This document shows positions 9,143 to 17,874 of a DNA stretch of 29,210 nucleotides, in pieces. Source of the stretch: a virus; IMG/VR virus record IMGVR_UViG_3300032093_000620, positions 1-29,210 of that record, one strand, 5' to 3'. Both the position numbers and the translations under genes were made by a program. The first letter of the stretch is position 1; every line of letters starts with the position of its first letter. A model generated the notes under the pieces. The model had not been told where the DNA came from. It made no database searches and saw only the letters and a program-made list of their open reading frames with translations.

Positions 9143-10366
9143 TTACTTCTTGAGCGCGGCGACGAACGACGGGCCGGTGGACGCGAGGCCGAAGCGCTGC
9201 GTGCCGACGAAAACCGTCTGGTCGTACTCGATCGCCCGCTCGCGGCTGGCGTTGATCGTCAGCCCGTTGCTGCGATCCACCACCATGCTCGCCTGCTTGA
9301 AGTCGCCGTAGATGCCGAGCACGTCATCGGGCAGCGACAGGCACTTGTAGACCGGCGCGCCGAAAATCTGCATCCGCATCGGAGCAGCAACGTCGTAGCC
9401 GATCGCGCTGGCCGCAGCCGCCTGCAACTGGCCCAGGCCGGCGGGCGACATGATCCAAACCGGAGCGACCGCGTAGGGATTGATCATGCTCACCACGTCG
9501 GCCAGGTTTGCGATCGTGACCTTCGGGGCGGCGGTGACGGTGTTCGTGATCTGCGGGAGCAGACCCGTGATGCCGGCACCGGAATCACCTTCGAGCCAAA
9601 GCTGGTCGATCTTCTTCGCGAAGGCATACGCGAACTTGGTCGCCACGAGCTGCGGGACGGACGTGAAGGCGTCCTCGAGCAGTTCGTTGGAAACCTGGGC
9701 ACGCGCACCCAACTTCTCGACGTTGATCGTCGTGCTGCTCGTCTTGATCAGCACCGGCTTGATCTCGCAGTTTTCGAGATACAGCTCGGCCTCGACGTTC
9801 TCGTCCGCACGCGGCACGGTCACGCGGTTGCTCGTGGTCGTGAGCCGCATCGCCACCTGCATGGCAATCGAGGTGTAGGACAGGATGCCCAGGATCGAAC
9901 GGTAGAACTCCTCGAAAACGAGTTCGCTGTTCCGGCCCAGGTAGGTCGGCAGACGCTCGCCGTGGGAGTTCGGCTCCTCGGTCGCACCGGTGAAGGCACC
10001 GCGCGTCTCACCGCGGGCGATCGACCGCAGCATGAGGCCGCACCGCTGGGCGACCTCCTCGGGCATATCGCCCTTGCCGTCCCACTTCTCGGGGGCCGGG
10101 ACGATGGCCGCGGCCGGGGCCGCGATCACGCCGCGCGGCTCGCTGTCGCCAATCGCCGCCTTCATGCTGGCGATCTTCGCGTTGATCGCGGTGCGGGCCT
10201 CGATCTCGGTTTTGATCTCGGCCGCACGGGCCGCGATCTTGTCGAGTTCGGCATTGGCCTGGACGGCCTGCTCCGAACCGGCCTCGACCTCGATGGCCGT
10301 CAGGTCGTTGAATCGCGCCTCGAGCGCGGCGGCCTCGTCTTGCAGTTTGCGGAGCAGCGTATCCAC
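9143..10366 (-). CDS. Major capsid protein, HK97 fold
   Basis: 407 aa, the length of a capsid precursor. Residues 1-75 are a charged coiled coil (LLRKLQDEAAALEARF...) of the delta/scaffold type that the protease removes. The remaining part reads as an HK97-fold core: ELVFEEFYRSILGILSYTS, PRADENVEAELY, ELLEDAFTSVPQLVATKFAYAFA, then FGAPVYKCLSLPDDVLGIYGDF and a final ERAIEYDQTVFVGTQRFG strand. It starts at GTG 10366 with AAGGAG 9 nt upstream. A GTTTCCCCGATAC leader motif lies just upstream. It is separated from the protease gene by a five-gene cassette, which is unusual. Confidence 0.93.
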   Translation of the reverse strand: MDTLLRKLQDEAAALEARFNDLTAIEVEAGSEQAVQANAELDKIAARAAEIKTEIEARTAINAKIASMKAAIGDSEPRGVIAAPAAAIVPAPEKWDGKGDMPEEVAQRCGLMLRSIARGETRGAFTGATEEPNSHGERLPTYLGRNSELVFEEFYRSILGILSYTSIAMQVAMRLTTTSNRVTVPRADENVEAELYLENCEIKPVLIKTSSTTINVEKLGARAQVSNELLEDAFTSVPQLVATKFAYAFAKKIDQLWLEGDSGAGITGLLPQITNTVTAAPKVTIANLADVVSMINPYAVAPVWIMSPAGLGQLQAAAASAIGYDVAAPMRMQIFGAPVYKCLSLPDDVLGIYGDFKQASMVVDRSNGLTINASRERAIEYDQTVFVGTQRFGLASTGPSFVAALKK

Positions 10367-10445: not shown

Positions 10446-11249
10446 CTACCGCAGAACAAATTTCCCGCCGGCCACGATCGCGTCGAACCGCTGCGACTGC
10501 CATTCGACAAAACCACGCAGCTGGTCGATCTCGGGGTACGTCGGGTCGAATCGCTCGACGGCCTTCACGAGCCAGCCGCAGTAGCGGGCCATCTCGCTCG
10601 CGTATCGCTCCGTCTCCTGCCGGTCGGCCTGGCCCGTCTGCCGGCGGGCGATCGTGCCGTGCACGTAGGCGTTCCACTCATCGAGCAGGTAAAGCGGCTC
10701 GCGATCCCAATCGACTCGCTGCCGCACGAGGTACAGATCGAAGACTTCGCCGCGTTCTCCGGCCGGTATCATCGCGGCCACCTGGCCGATCGTCACTCGC
10801 GGGTGGCGCTTGAACACCACCGCGCGGCCGTCGAGCAGGTACAGCCCGTATCCCCCGCCCGACACTACGCTCGTCATGCCGTGGGTTGCCTCGTGCGCCC
10901 AGGTCACCAGGTCGCCCGGCTCTGCCTCGTCTCGCCAGTAGAAGGGCCGCGGCACGCGGGCCAGCAGGTCTACCAGCACCGGCGGGCCGGCCACGGGGGC
11001 CGCCCGCACCTCGGGGGCCGCCCCCGTCACCAGGCCCGCAGGGTTGACCCGTGGCGGCTTTGGGGCCGCCGGGGGTATGGAGGGAGGGGCTGGGGGGCGT
11101 TCGGGCGTTATGGAGCGAATTTGGAGGCCTGGGGGCGTGTTGTCCCGATAGCGGGGAAACGCAGGGGGCCGCCCCAGCCAACCGGCCGGAGCGGCCCCCA
11201 GGAGCGCGACAATGGCGAAGGCGCAGGCGAGCGAGCGGTACAGAGACAC
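10446..11249 (-). CDS. Secreted HEATH-motif metallopeptidase-like protein
   Basis: 267 aa. The N-terminus (MSLYRSLACAFAIVALLGAAPAG) is a Sec-type signal peptide. Residues about 36-75 are a Pro-rich linker. The catalytic-type motif HEATH spans residues 119-123, and LLDEWNAY places Glu191 in the downstream helix where a gluzincin third zinc ligand would be expected. It starts at GTG 11249 with GAGG 6 nt upstream. The nearest genes upstream also encode exported or membrane proteins. It could cleave host envelope protein or assist lysis, or it could be a surface moron. Zinc-peptidase chemistry is inferred from the motif only. Confidence 0.72.
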   Translation of the reverse strand: MSLYRSLACAFAIVALLGAAPAGWLGRPPAFPRYRDNTPPGLQIRSITPERPPAPPSIPPAAPKPPRVNPAGLVTGAAPEVRAAPVAGPPVLVDLLARVPRPFYWRDEAEPGDLVTWAHEATHGMTSVVSGGGYGLYLLDGRAVVFKRHPRVTIGQVAAMIPAGERGEVFDLYLVRQRVDWDREPLYLLDEWNAYVHGTIARRQTGQADRQETERYASEMARYCGWLVKAVERFDPTYPEIDQLRGFVEWQSQRFDAIVAGGKFVLR

Positions 11250-11276
11250 GGGTTGCCTCGCTGCCCAGGCCGTGCG

Positions 11277-11717
11277 TCAGTTGCCGTAGGCTTGCGCCGC
11301 TGCCTCGTCGATCGCGGCCTGGCTCGCGGCCTCGCTCGACTTCACGGCCGCCCGCGTCGCCCGCCGGCTCTGCACAGCTGCGTGCTTCGCCGCTCGGGCC
11401 GCGCGGTTCGCGTTCCTGCGGGCGTCGAGCACGCTCACGCCACCACCAGGCAGAGGCTCGCCGGCCTGGCCCACCGACTGACCGCCGGGGCCACCGGCGA
11501 CCGGCTGGCCGTTCACGGTCACGTTGGCGTCCACGTTGGCGGGCGTCGAGGTCTCGACGCTCACGTCAACGTCTACGCTCGACGCCGGAACGACCTCGAC
11601 CACCGGAGCCGGGGCCGGCTTCTTCGTGCCGTGGCAGCTGCCGGCCTCGCAGTGGTTGGCGAACAGGCAGCCGGCGACGAACGCCCAGGCCCACACTGCA
11701 AAACGATGATCTCTCAT
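11277..11717 (-). CDS. Secreted alanine-rich protein of unknown function
   Basis: 146 aa. ATG 11717 is preferred because AAGGAG lies 6 nt upstream; another ATG at 11723 overlaps the spacer. Residues 1-26 form a signal peptide (FAVWAWAFVAGCLFA, cleavage likely near HCEAG). The middle is low-complexity and Val/Asp/Pro/Gly-rich. Residues about 95-146 are a long Ala/Arg helix (ARRNANRAARAAKHAAVQSRRA). No family is recognised. It lies between the CAP-domain and HEATH proteins and probably acts with them outside the cytoplasm. Confidence 0.65.
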   Translation of the reverse strand: MRDHRFAVWAWAFVAGCLFANHCEAGSCHGTKKPAPAPVVEVVPASSVDVDVSVETSTPANVDANVTVNGQPVAGGPGGQSVGQAGEPLPGGGVSVLDARRNANRAARAAKHAAVQSRRATRAAVKSSEAASQAAIDEAAAQAYGN

Positions 11718-11727
11718 TGGCATCTCC

Positions 11728-12198
11728 TTAGTTGAAAACCTGCGTCCAATACGGGCGACCGTTGGACGAATAAGCCAGCCCGACGCCGATTTCGTTGACG
11801 CTCGGACTCAGGATGTTCTTCCGGTGACCGGAGGAATTCATCCAAGTGCGAACTACCTCGCTCGGAGTCTGCTGGCCCATCGCGACGTTTTCGCGGTAGC
11901 CCATGCGACTGTGATACATGCGCGACCGTGAGGCTTGAACGTCCGACCAGCTGCGGGCATCCACCATGAGCCTGTCGCTCGGGGCCAGCGGCCGAAGCCC
12001 ACGACGCTGCCGCTCGATGTTCACGAGCCGCACGACCTCGTGCTCTTGGCTGCTGCCCACAAGGCGACGCACGACGGGGATCCGCTCGACAATCGGCGGC
12101 GCAGCCTCACAGGCCGGAGGGGCGCAGGCCTGCGGCCCGACCAGGGCGATCGCACCATAGGACAACAGCACTAGCGAAACAGTGGTTTTTGCGCGCAC
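11728..12198 (-). CDS. Secreted CAP/SCP-domain protein
   Basis: 156 aa, starting at GTG 12198 with GGAG 8 nt upstream; an in-frame reading up to 12795 is shadow sequence of the upstream genes. The N-terminus (TTVSLVLLSYGAIALVGPQACA) is a signal or lipoprotein-like peptide. The rest is a bacterial YkwD-type CAP domain. VVRLVNIERQRRGLRPL opens it, and MYHS (His96) and ENVA (Glu103) follow. Then come WMNSSGHRKNIL with His125, NEIGVG, and the terminal strand PYWTQVF. The CAP cavity residues are present. CAP proteins are rarely found in phages. Its gene overlaps the one-TM gene by 28 nt and lies in a cassette of exported proteins. It may bind lipid or envelope components, or help lysis. Confidence 0.82.
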   Translation of the reverse strand: MRAKTTVSLVLLSYGAIALVGPQACAPPACEAAPPIVERIPVVRRLVGSSQEHEVVRLVNIERQRRGLRPLAPSDRLMVDARSWSDVQASRSRMYHSRMGYRENVAMGQQTPSEVVRTWMNSSGHRKNILSPSVNEIGVGLAYSSNGRPYWTQVFN

Positions 12199-12470
12199 TT
12201 GTCTTGCTCCGCGGGGCGAGTGGCATCGCCGTACAGCACGGCGACAATCAGATCGCGGCAGATCACGGCCGCGTTCTTGTGTCCCTCTTTCTCCAGCCGG
12301 TTCTTCAGGTCGATCAGTTCGCCGGCCGTTCGCTTCTCGAAGTCGGTGCGGGCCGCAGCTGGGAACACGAGCGTGCCGACCCACAGGGCCAGCATCCGCT
12401 GAACATACGGAGCCACGAGCAACAGCACGCCGACCAACAGGATCGCGGTCTGTTGATTCACCCACTCCAT
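12171..12470 (-). CDS. Small membrane protein, holin-like candidate
   Basis: 99 aa, ATG 12470 with GAGG 6 nt upstream and TGATG coupling to the zinc-ribbon gene. Residues 8-37 are strongly hydrophobic (TAILLVGVLLLVAPYVQRML), giving one or possibly two short membrane segments. A charged C-terminal domain follows with a coiled-coil stretch (FEKRTAGELIDLKNRLEKEG). Single-TM size and location just upstream of a secreted protein cassette would suit a holin or spanin-like function, but no holin family is recognised. A longer in-frame reading to 12629 is shadow sequence. Confidence 0.65.
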   Translation of the reverse strand: MEWVNQQTAILLVGVLLLVAPYVQRMLALWVGTLVFPAAARTDFEKRTAGELIDLKNRLEKEGHKNAAVICRDLIVAVLYGDATRPAEQDKCAQKPLFR

Positions 12471-12643
12471 CACGCACCTCGTTTCTCTTGCAGCTGCCGC
12501 CGCCAGACCTCGGCCGCCCGCACGACGCGGGAGCTGCGCTGCCCGCAGCGGTGGCATCGCAGGTATTGAATCTGTGAGTCGCCGGCCCGCCGCGAGGTCT
12601 CGCAGCGCATGCGGCACCCGCAACGACACTCAGCCGGCTGCAT
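12470..12643 (-). CDS. Zinc-ribbon-like small protein
   Basis: 57 aa: MQPAECRCGCRMRC opens it, then a hydrophilic linker and LRCHRCGQRS, ending in a basic helix (AAEVWRRQLQEKRGA). The Cys pairs CxCGC/C and CxxC fit a zinc ribbon. The TGA stop overlaps the ATG of the membrane gene (TGATG), and the start lies 14 nt inside the protease gene end. Both overlaps argue for a real coupled gene. It could be a DNA/RNA-binding regulator of the following cassette; function unknown. Confidence 0.65.
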   Translation of the reverse strand: MQPAECRCGCRMRCETSRRAGDSQIQYLRCHRCGQRSSRVVRAAEVWRRQLQEKRGA

Positions 12644-13262
12644 GGGCCTTCAACCTCGCAAGGGCCAGGGACGCAGCCACCCGCGGGCTGCGGAGCGAAA
12701 GGCGAACGGCCTGGGCCTGGGCGGCCTTCCAGGCCTCGAACGAACGAACGGCAATGCTCGTCTGCGGGTAGGCCGGCACCGTGACTACGCTGCAATCGTA
12801 AAGGCCGCTCACCGCGCTGATCTTGCGGATCGAGTTGCCCCGCTCGTCCTTCTCGAACTCCTCATCCTTCGGATTCACGGTGAACGCGAAGGATGCCCCA
12901 GCAATATCGCCGCGACGTATCTGCAGACACAAATCACGAGCGAACTGCGTATCGGGCGGGTCGATCTCCATGAATAGACCCTTCTCGTCCTCACGCAGCG
13001 TCAGCGTCTTGTTGCGCGTGCGGCCGAGCACGTGGTCGCCGGAATGATTGAAGTTCGCAATGCAGTCGAGCTTCCGGTTCGCCAGCACCTTCGCGAAGCA
13101 GCCGGGGAGCAGAATCTCCCGAAAGCCTCCCAGGTCGTGGCTCGGCGAATTGAAGCGGGCACAGTAGCCGCGAATCATCAGCTTGCCCGCCTCGCGCTCC
13201 TCGACGCCCAGGCCTTCGTCGCCCAGGTCTGCGAAGCTGATAAATCGCCTCTCAAGTTCCAT
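12630..13262 (-). CDS. HK97-family prohead protease
   Basis: 210 aa. A maturation protease that cleaves the capsid scaffold domain inside the prohead. The diagnostic residues are His73 in NFNHSGDHVLGRT and Ser124 in GASFAF, with the family pattern GYCARFNSPS...FREILLPGCF upstream and SGLYDCSVVTVPAYPQT downstream. ATG 13262 overlaps the portal gene end by 11 nt. A basic, Ala-rich tail (residues about 175-210) follows the family core. Unlike most siphophages, it is not directly followed by the capsid gene. Confidence 0.92.
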   Translation of the reverse strand: MELERRFISFADLGDEGLGVEEREAGKLMIRGYCARFNSPSHDLGGFREILLPGCFAKVLANRKLDCIANFNHSGDHVLGRTRNKTLTLREDEKGLFMEIDPPDTQFARDLCLQIRRGDIAGASFAFTVNPKDEEFEKDERGNSIRKISAVSGLYDCSVVTVPAYPQTSIAVRSFEAWKAAQAQAVRLSLRSPRVAASLALARLKAHAAG

Positions 13263-16906: not shown

Positions 16907-17116
16907 CTAGTCTGCCTTCGGCCGGCCGCGGCCCTCGGGGTTCCGCTCGAAGGCCGCCGCATCCTTGCGGTGCACGTACCAGACGCCTTCGATCTCGAAC
17001 CCTCTCACTTTGCCGGCCTTCGCCAGCGCTCGCATCCAATCCCGCGAGACGCCGGCCAGGCCCGCGGCCGTGCCGACGCTGGCCCACTCATCGGGCCGGA
17101 AATTACGGATCGTCAT
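16907..17116 (-). CDS. Small helix-turn-helix DNA-binding protein
   Basis: 69 aa, starting ATG 17116 in an ATGA overlap with the Gp37/Gp68-like gene. The segment WASVGTAAGLAGVSRDWMRALAKAGKVRGFEIEG reads as an excisionase/MerR-like helix-turn-helix with wing (GTAAxLxGVSxxxxRxLxKxGKVxG), and VWYVHRKDAAAFE fits the closing strand and helix. It may be a transcription regulator, an excisionase or a packaging cofactor. A longer reading to 17272 is shadow sequence. Confidence 0.72.
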   Translation of the reverse strand: MTIRNFRPDEWASVGTAAGLAGVSRDWMRALAKAGKVRGFEIEGVWYVHRKDAAAFERNPEGRGRPKAD

Positions 17117-17874
17117 GCGATCACCTTCCTCTCTACGCTGCGGGGCGTCGGGTACTCGCGAACGATTCGGCCGTCCAACTCGATGCCCATCTCGGTGCGG
17201 TAGCCGGCGCTCTGCTTGTGGAAAAACGCGGCTCCCGTCTCGCTGCACTTTCTGTGCATCGACCTGGCCCAATCCTTATCTTCGGCCCGATACCCCGGCC
17301 CGCTCTCGCCACCGTAGATCACCCAGTCGATGCCGGTGATATCGAGCGCCTCGAGCGAGCCCAGGGCCGGCTCGTAACTGATGAACCGCACCACCGCCGG
17401 AATGTCTCGCAGGTGGTCGACTCGCTCGGCCACCCTCATATCCTCGACGCTCGTGCCGAGCCAGACGTTGCGATACCCGCCCGATCCCCAATCCTTCGGC
17501 AGACACTCGCGGATGCGCTGCGGCCGCTTCGTGAGCATCTGCCAATCGAGCCACTCGCACGAGCGGATCGTATCCCACAGGCGCGGCCTGGTTGCCGCGG
17601 CCGTGGGATGATCCTCGGCCCAATCCATCATCGAGCCGCAGAACACGCGGCGGCGAACGCCGTCACGCTTCGCGGCGCGGTTCCAGGCGAGCACGTTCTG
17701 CCATACGCCCTTCGCCACCTGCCGCGGCTTGCCAGCGCCCCATACGTCCAGGCCCAGCTTGCCGCTCGCGATCTTCTCCGCGTAGCAGTTCCGGCATCCC
17801 TCCGAAACCTTCACGCAGCCAATCCAAAAGTTCGCAGTGTGATCCGTCCATGCAATCAGCGTCTCGTCGGCCAT
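17113..17874 (-). CDS. Phage Gp37/Gp68-family (DUF5131) protein
   Basis: 253 aa. The N-terminus matches the family signature: WTDHTANFWIGC, KVSEGCRNCYAEK, with Cys20, Cys27 and Cys30. Typical further elements are CGSMMDWAE, LTKRPQRI, NVWLGTSVED, FISYEPALG and IDWVIYGGESGPG. The Cys cluster and TIM-barrel-like repeats suggest a metal- or Fe-S-dependent enzyme distantly like radical SAM proteins, but the reaction is unknown. In other genomes the family often accompanies a three-Cys-motif partner protein (TcmP); I see none here. A ribosome-binding site AGGGAG lies 9 nt before the ATG. Confidence 0.88.
   Translation of the reverse strand: MADETLIAWTDHTANFWIGCVKVSEGCRNCYAEKIASGKLGLDVWGAGKPRQVAKGVWQNVLAWNRAAKRDGVRRRVFCGSMMDWAEDHPTAAATRPRLWDTIRSCEWLDWQMLTKRPQRIRECLPKDWGSGGYRNVWLGTSVEDMRVAERVDHLRDIPAVVRFISYEPALGSLEALDITGIDWVIYGGESGPGYRAEDKDWARSMHRKCSETGAAFFHKQSAGYRTEMGIELDGRIVREYPTPRSVERKVIA

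Follow-up and report, generated by a model that had tools for sequence, protein, structure and literature searches.

Gene content and layout of the locus

The window analysed here is a linear IMG/VR record of 29,210 bases. Its late genes follow one another on the minus strand, beginning with the two terminase genes (small, then large) and continuing with portal, prohead protease, cassette, capsid, connectors, and tail. In HK97-type head modules, the protease and capsid genes are adjacent as a rule. In the clade of the window this adjacency is broken by a cassette of 2.2 kb (Table 1). A sequence-only reading had described five genes in this interval, and the open reading frames (ORFs), together with the Pfam matches of the bordering genes, place all of them there on the minus strand.

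The cassette forms an uninterrupted array from 12643 to 10446, with overlaps between the protease gene and ZR, ZR and TM1, and TM1 and CAP, and with small gaps downstream of CAP. As its genes overlap or almost abut, they are probably co-transcribed and translationally coupled. They are regarded as genuine genes and not chance ORFs, because homologues occur in the same order in several phages and pN/pS ranges from 0.31 to 0.78 across all five, similar to portal and capsid and with ALA being the loosest. These values indicate that purifying selection acts on each of the five. Hydrophobic N-terminal segments are present on TM1, CAP, ALA, and HEATH (KD19 up to 2.0) and support export or anchoring of these four proteins.

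Two further genes of the window can be mentioned. A DUF5131 protein (PF07505, E=1.7e-63) is encoded at 17113-17874, just upstream of the terminase genes, and an integrase-like gene at 302-1276 on the plus strand (phrog_1, E=3.7e-20) suggests a temperate phage.

Table 1. Coordinates of the cassette and its borders in the window, and of HEATH genes located among DNA-metabolism genes in other records.
Feature	Position	Strand	Description
Prohead serine protease (Peptidase_S78), upstream border	12630..13262	-	PF04586 E=1.6e-43; phrog_80
ZR	12470..12643	-	57-aa zinc-ribbon peptide, CxC...CxxC
TM1	12171..12470	-	99 aa, single membrane helix
CAP	11728..12198	-	156 aa, PF00188 E=5.7e-17; phrog_16914
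ALA	11277..11723	-	148-aa Ala-rich protein, predicted export
HEATH	10446..11249	-	HExxH domain; outside every Pfam family
HK97-type major capsid protein, downstream border	9143..10366	-	PF05065 E=6.9e-30
HEATH between ResIII helicase and HNH nuclease	L106:6750-7672; L108; L115; L125		

Conservation between protease and capsid

To avoid selection bias, relatives of the window were sampled by their terminase (at least 47% identity) and not by the cassette. Phages were counted when a contig spanned the interval from protease to capsid, yielding seven relatives and, with the window, a set of eight. HEATH lies in the interval in all eight, the complete TM1-CAP-ALA-HEATH block is found in seven, and the protease and capsid genes are adjacent in none. 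The best relatives, 3300044611_001394, 3300034283_002812, 3300033571_019660, and 3300044615_001326, all show this gene order. Individual members can be missing: the interval of L134 contains ZR, a short exported protein with a DCHG motif, and HEATH, without TM1 and CAP, and ZR is absent in L005. In the distant L146 (37% terminase identity), the protease and capsid genes overlap, which is the usual arrangement. Since this distant phage has overlapping genes and the clade never has them adjacent, insertion of the cassette is most simply read as derived. As sampled, the insertion is fixed in the window clade. The conserved order that the earlier reading had proposed to look for in relatives is thus present, and its alternative of a moron is disfavoured by the constant, not sporadic, presence of HEATH at the locus.

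Distribution in more distant phages

An alignment-based search with CAP retrieved 140 viral relatives. In the close group, with 30 non-redundant loci, TM1 is located immediately upstream of CAP in 21, ALA immediately downstream in about 20 (a count that takes in L018 and L019, added by eye), and HEATH at a distance of at most 2.5 kb from CAP in 15. The TM1-CAP-ALA block also occurs in podovirus-like phages whose capsid, portal, and terminase are unrelated; here HEATH is found on either side or elsewhere. Given the many podovirus-like carriers with unrelated head genes, the block is passed on in one piece from one head-gene background to another. A third arrangement lacks TM1 and has CAP ahead of the scaffold gene, with HEATH encoded elsewhere in the genome.

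Genome-wide, HEATH was detected in 16 of 19 records with a cassette-type CAP and in 0 of 15 with a more distant CAP (Fisher p=4e-7, kinship ignored). The records are of mixed completeness, one of the positives being the window itself, and the three HEATH-less records are 21-43 kb long. A ResIII-type helicase gene and an HNH nuclease gene flank HEATH in podovirus-like relatives, and this position is seen in G005, G007, G009, and G013; L106 has a small hydrophobic ORF immediately upstream of HEATH. The large contigs L110-L113 (77-162 kb) encode a HEATH relative as well; of these, L110 and L111 were searched for a cassette-type CAP, with a negative result.

ZR and TM1

The cysteines C6, C8, C30, and C33 of ZR are invariant in three phages. 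ZR, for which no family match was obtained, has homologues in L134, L135, L136, and L140 and is present in most HK97-type relatives; it was not seen in podovirus-like relatives.

TM1 has no Pfam or PHROG match. An alignment of 24 sequences displays one N-terminal membrane helix followed by two predicted helices, and AlphaFold2 places helices at residues 4-36, 41-63, and 66-82 with low confidence (pLDDT 65). The part after the membrane helix is likely cytoplasmic. TM1 is missing in G007, G008, G009, and G013 and is therefore no indispensable holin. Several TM1 proteins carry short QxxLF-like C-terminal tails (KPLFR, SSLFGK, KSLFQ, NALFGK), which by eye resemble a sliding-clamp-binding motif; they were noted at 12171-12190 of the window and in the homologues L024, L043, L054, L058, and L061.

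CAP

With 63.1 bits against a cut-off of 21.1, CAP is by its sequence a true member of PF00188. Among the central-cavity residues, the two His and the Glu (H96, E103, and H125) are invariant in 29/29 homologues; the fourth cavity position, E114, is Glu in just 15 of the 29. For CAP domains, lipid or sterol binding is better known than wall cleavage (PMC4921858). CAP proteins of Bacillus phages are already known (PMC4541274). The LysM-YkwD-type CAP proteins of the Bacillus megaterium phages Slash, Stahl, Staley, and Stills are likewise phage-encoded, possess the His pair and Glu, and are secreted, as is predicted for the cassette CAP. They share about 36% identity with the cassette CAP but carry LysM. 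Conventional lysis genes, a holin and endolysins, are present in Stills (PMC4541274). HEATH was absent from the one 80-kb Bacillus-phage-like record tested.

ALA

The length of ALA is variable. Its homologues keep an export segment and a C-terminal region that is basic and Ala-rich, and most of them also have the 'CHG' motif. In the alignment, the motif reads 'AG[SND]CHG' and is located close to the predicted mature N-terminus; the C-terminus is basic and helical, with a net charge of +4 over the last 60 residues. A lipoprotein was rejected as the preferred assignment: the Cys is conserved, but by eye the flanking upstream residues form no lipobox in most homologues. The same observation, no conserved lipobox visible by eye in the ALA alignment, applies to a comparison with spanins. 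A role as scaffolding protein was also discarded, as the PHROG match (E=0.006) was judged compositional because ALA homologues have N-terminal export segments.

Phage disruptins are cationic lysis peptides that disrupt the outer membrane. ALA resembles them in design only, namely in predicted export and a basic helical C-terminus; it is longer and has an export segment and the conserved CHG motif.

HEATH

HEATH consists of an N-terminal hydrophobic membrane or export segment, a Pro-rich linker modelled with low confidence, and a compact domain. Twelve residues (H119, E120, H123, Y137, A158, Y173, W181, E191, Y195, G198, E219, and L244) are invariant in an alignment of 27 members with identities down to about 27%. 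None of 25 members matched a Pfam family. The AlphaFold2 model has a mean pLDDT of 84, with about 88-99 per block for residues 81-260, and puts the HExxH motif in the helix of residues 114-129 and E191 in that of residues 187-205. HEATH is thus a candidate zinc peptidase whose family is missing from Pfam, and E191 as third ligand would fit the expected pattern. An invariant HExxH on a helix and a downstream Glu on a second helix are shared with gluzincin-type metallopeptidases; HEATH differs from these in having no Pfam, PDB sequence, or fold match.

Searches with the model of HEATH against PDB and viral structure libraries returned no Foldseek match at E<=0.001, the best VIA match (Z 5.6) was to unrelated helical proteins, and a comparison with PDB sequences gave unrelated chance matches only. 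A weak or missing structure match does not amount to a new fold. Nearly identical N-terminal anchors (MERGPVVRYLPLFLFG...) are joined to catalytic domains of two subfamilies, one in L030:8036-8803 and L035:5430-6197, the other in L031:2271-3011 and L034:8031-8771. These sequences look like the outcome of a recombination that exchanged the domain. Neither the HEATH family, nor the cassette, nor its link with phages in which no endolysin is recognised was found in the libraries searched.

Search for conventional lysis genes

The earlier reading had noted that no classical endolysin is visible in the window, and the window ORFs that were scanned gave no endolysin domain. The window being a linear record of 29 kb, absence from it alone proves little. 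The search was extended to relatives, of which G006 (61,391 bases) is probably complete, as it has a direct terminal repeat of 127 bases. A Pfam scan of its 195 ORFs identified 28 families, none of them a peptidoglycan hydrolase or holin, and CAP is the sole one of these that also belongs to the cassette. The 62.8-kb G009 has 20 Pfam families, including CAP and no endolysin or holin. A recognised endolysin elsewhere in the fuller genomes, as the earlier reading had suggested looking for, is therefore not seen in these two most complete relatives, G006 with its terminal repeats and the 63-kb G009. For G001, the best 25 of 31 Pfam families include no endolysin or holin.

Five endolysin families (Phage_lysozyme, Amidase_2, SLT, Peptidase_M15_4, and NLPC_P60) were looked for in all six frames of 13 records, and none of them was detected. 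For Amidase_2, 15 unrelated CAP phages gave no match either; it is thus non-discriminating, so that absences of single families carry little weight. These phages may still encode an endolysin of an unknown family. The 37-kb G001 (L122, L123) encodes amidoligase, glutamine amidotransferase, sulfotransferase, and glycosyltransferase domains, which are possible surface-modification genes.

Host

The idea of a planctomycete host gains support from one gene. Beside its tail genes, G006 encodes a DUF1559 protein (L118:15384-16394) with a prepilin-type N-terminus and an N-terminal methylation motif. According to published accounts, DUF1559 is apparently restricted to Planctomycetes (PMC10632474), or exclusive to the PVC superphylum (PMC4807772). 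As a general host marker DUF1559 failed, being found in 1/13 records; the suggested host is based on a single gene of a single relative. An alignment search of genome contigs with HEATH and terminase revealed no relative and no prophage. In Planctopirus limnophila, most murein synthesis genes are non-essential and a diderm envelope is supported (PMC10632474); a murein-directed endolysin could hence be dispensable there.

Proposed function and alternatives

As no cell-wall lysis enzyme is recognisable, the cassette may break or change a planctomycete-type host envelope in an unconventional way. It is tentatively proposed, at a little short of even confidence, to be a non-canonical lysis or envelope-breaching module. 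In tailed phages of planctomycete-type diderm hosts, a late, exported, envelope-attacking cassette would replace the missing endolysin-holin-spanin set. TM1 in the inner membrane would control or permit release. HEATH would be held by its N-terminal segment, reach outward on its Pro-rich tether, and act as a zinc peptidase that cuts an envelope component, either a structural protein or a peptide cross-link. In the periplasm, CAP might bind or hydrolyse lipids, and ALA, as a secreted basic helical protein, might perturb the outer membrane.

The holin-endolysin-spanin cassette of the lambda type is also a small multigene set that combines an inner-membrane protein with exported envelope-active candidates, and on the proposed reading there would be one candidate per envelope layer in both. 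The cassette differs in having no peptidoglycan-hydrolase domain and no recognised holin or spanin, with CAP and the HExxH family instead, and in its position between protease and capsid.

Early or constitutive envelope remodelling is an unlikely alternative but has several observations in its favour. Here, exported HEATH and CAP would modify proteins or lipids of the cell surface in the course of infection or lysogeny and thereby confer superinfection exclusion or mask receptors. A temperate lifestyle is suggested by integrase-like genes in the window and in G006, and PHROGs places phage CAP proteins under moron/host takeover. In several relatives, HEATH lies within the DNA-metabolism cluster; the position between helicase and HNH nuclease genes makes early expression likely, which favours remodelling or superinfection exclusion. 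The T7 lysozyme gene is also located among early or middle genes, so this location is not decisive against lysis. Against remodelling, the cassette is embedded in the late head operon of the window clade, and its fixation in 8/8 clade members and co-retention across three head-gene arrangements fit a core function better than a moron.

Periplasmic host takeover appears rather improbable. In that case, HEATH would break down proteins of the host envelope, for instance to release nutrients or block a defence, with CAP and ALA as accessories, and lysis would be left to other, unrecognised genes. These genomes contain numerous genes without assignment, and a shared host type explains the co-occurrence as well as joint function does. 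The tight TM1-CAP-ALA order across unrelated phages suggests a single joint function instead.

Still less probable is a virion or entry function, with the proteins on or with the particle aiding envelope penetration at infection. In three architectures, a capsid, scaffold, or decoration gene of the head is found near CAP, but N-terminal export or anchor segments on four of the five proteins and the distance of HEATH from structural genes in several relatives argue against it. That these are ordinary hypothetical genes placed between protease and capsid by happenstance, with no joint function, is very improbable and largely refuted already: some relatives do without single members (L134 without TM1 and CAP, L005 without ZR), but the clade-conserved order, recurrence beside unrelated head genes, and purifying selection speak against it.

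A more far-reaching form of the lysis reading must be considered doubtful. According to it, phage lineages would have abandoned lysis by murein hydrolases for a protein- and membrane-directed attack on an envelope with little or dispensable peptidoglycan, carried out by a tethered zinc peptidase of a new family, CAP, and an exported cationic helical protein.

Phage exit from planctomycete cells seems undescribed, as nothing relevant emerged when full texts were searched for named phages of planctomycetes. In phages that lack recognised endolysins, a portable and conserved group of exported proteins provides concrete genes to test. Furthermore, the new HExxH family could serve as a useful envelope-active enzyme.
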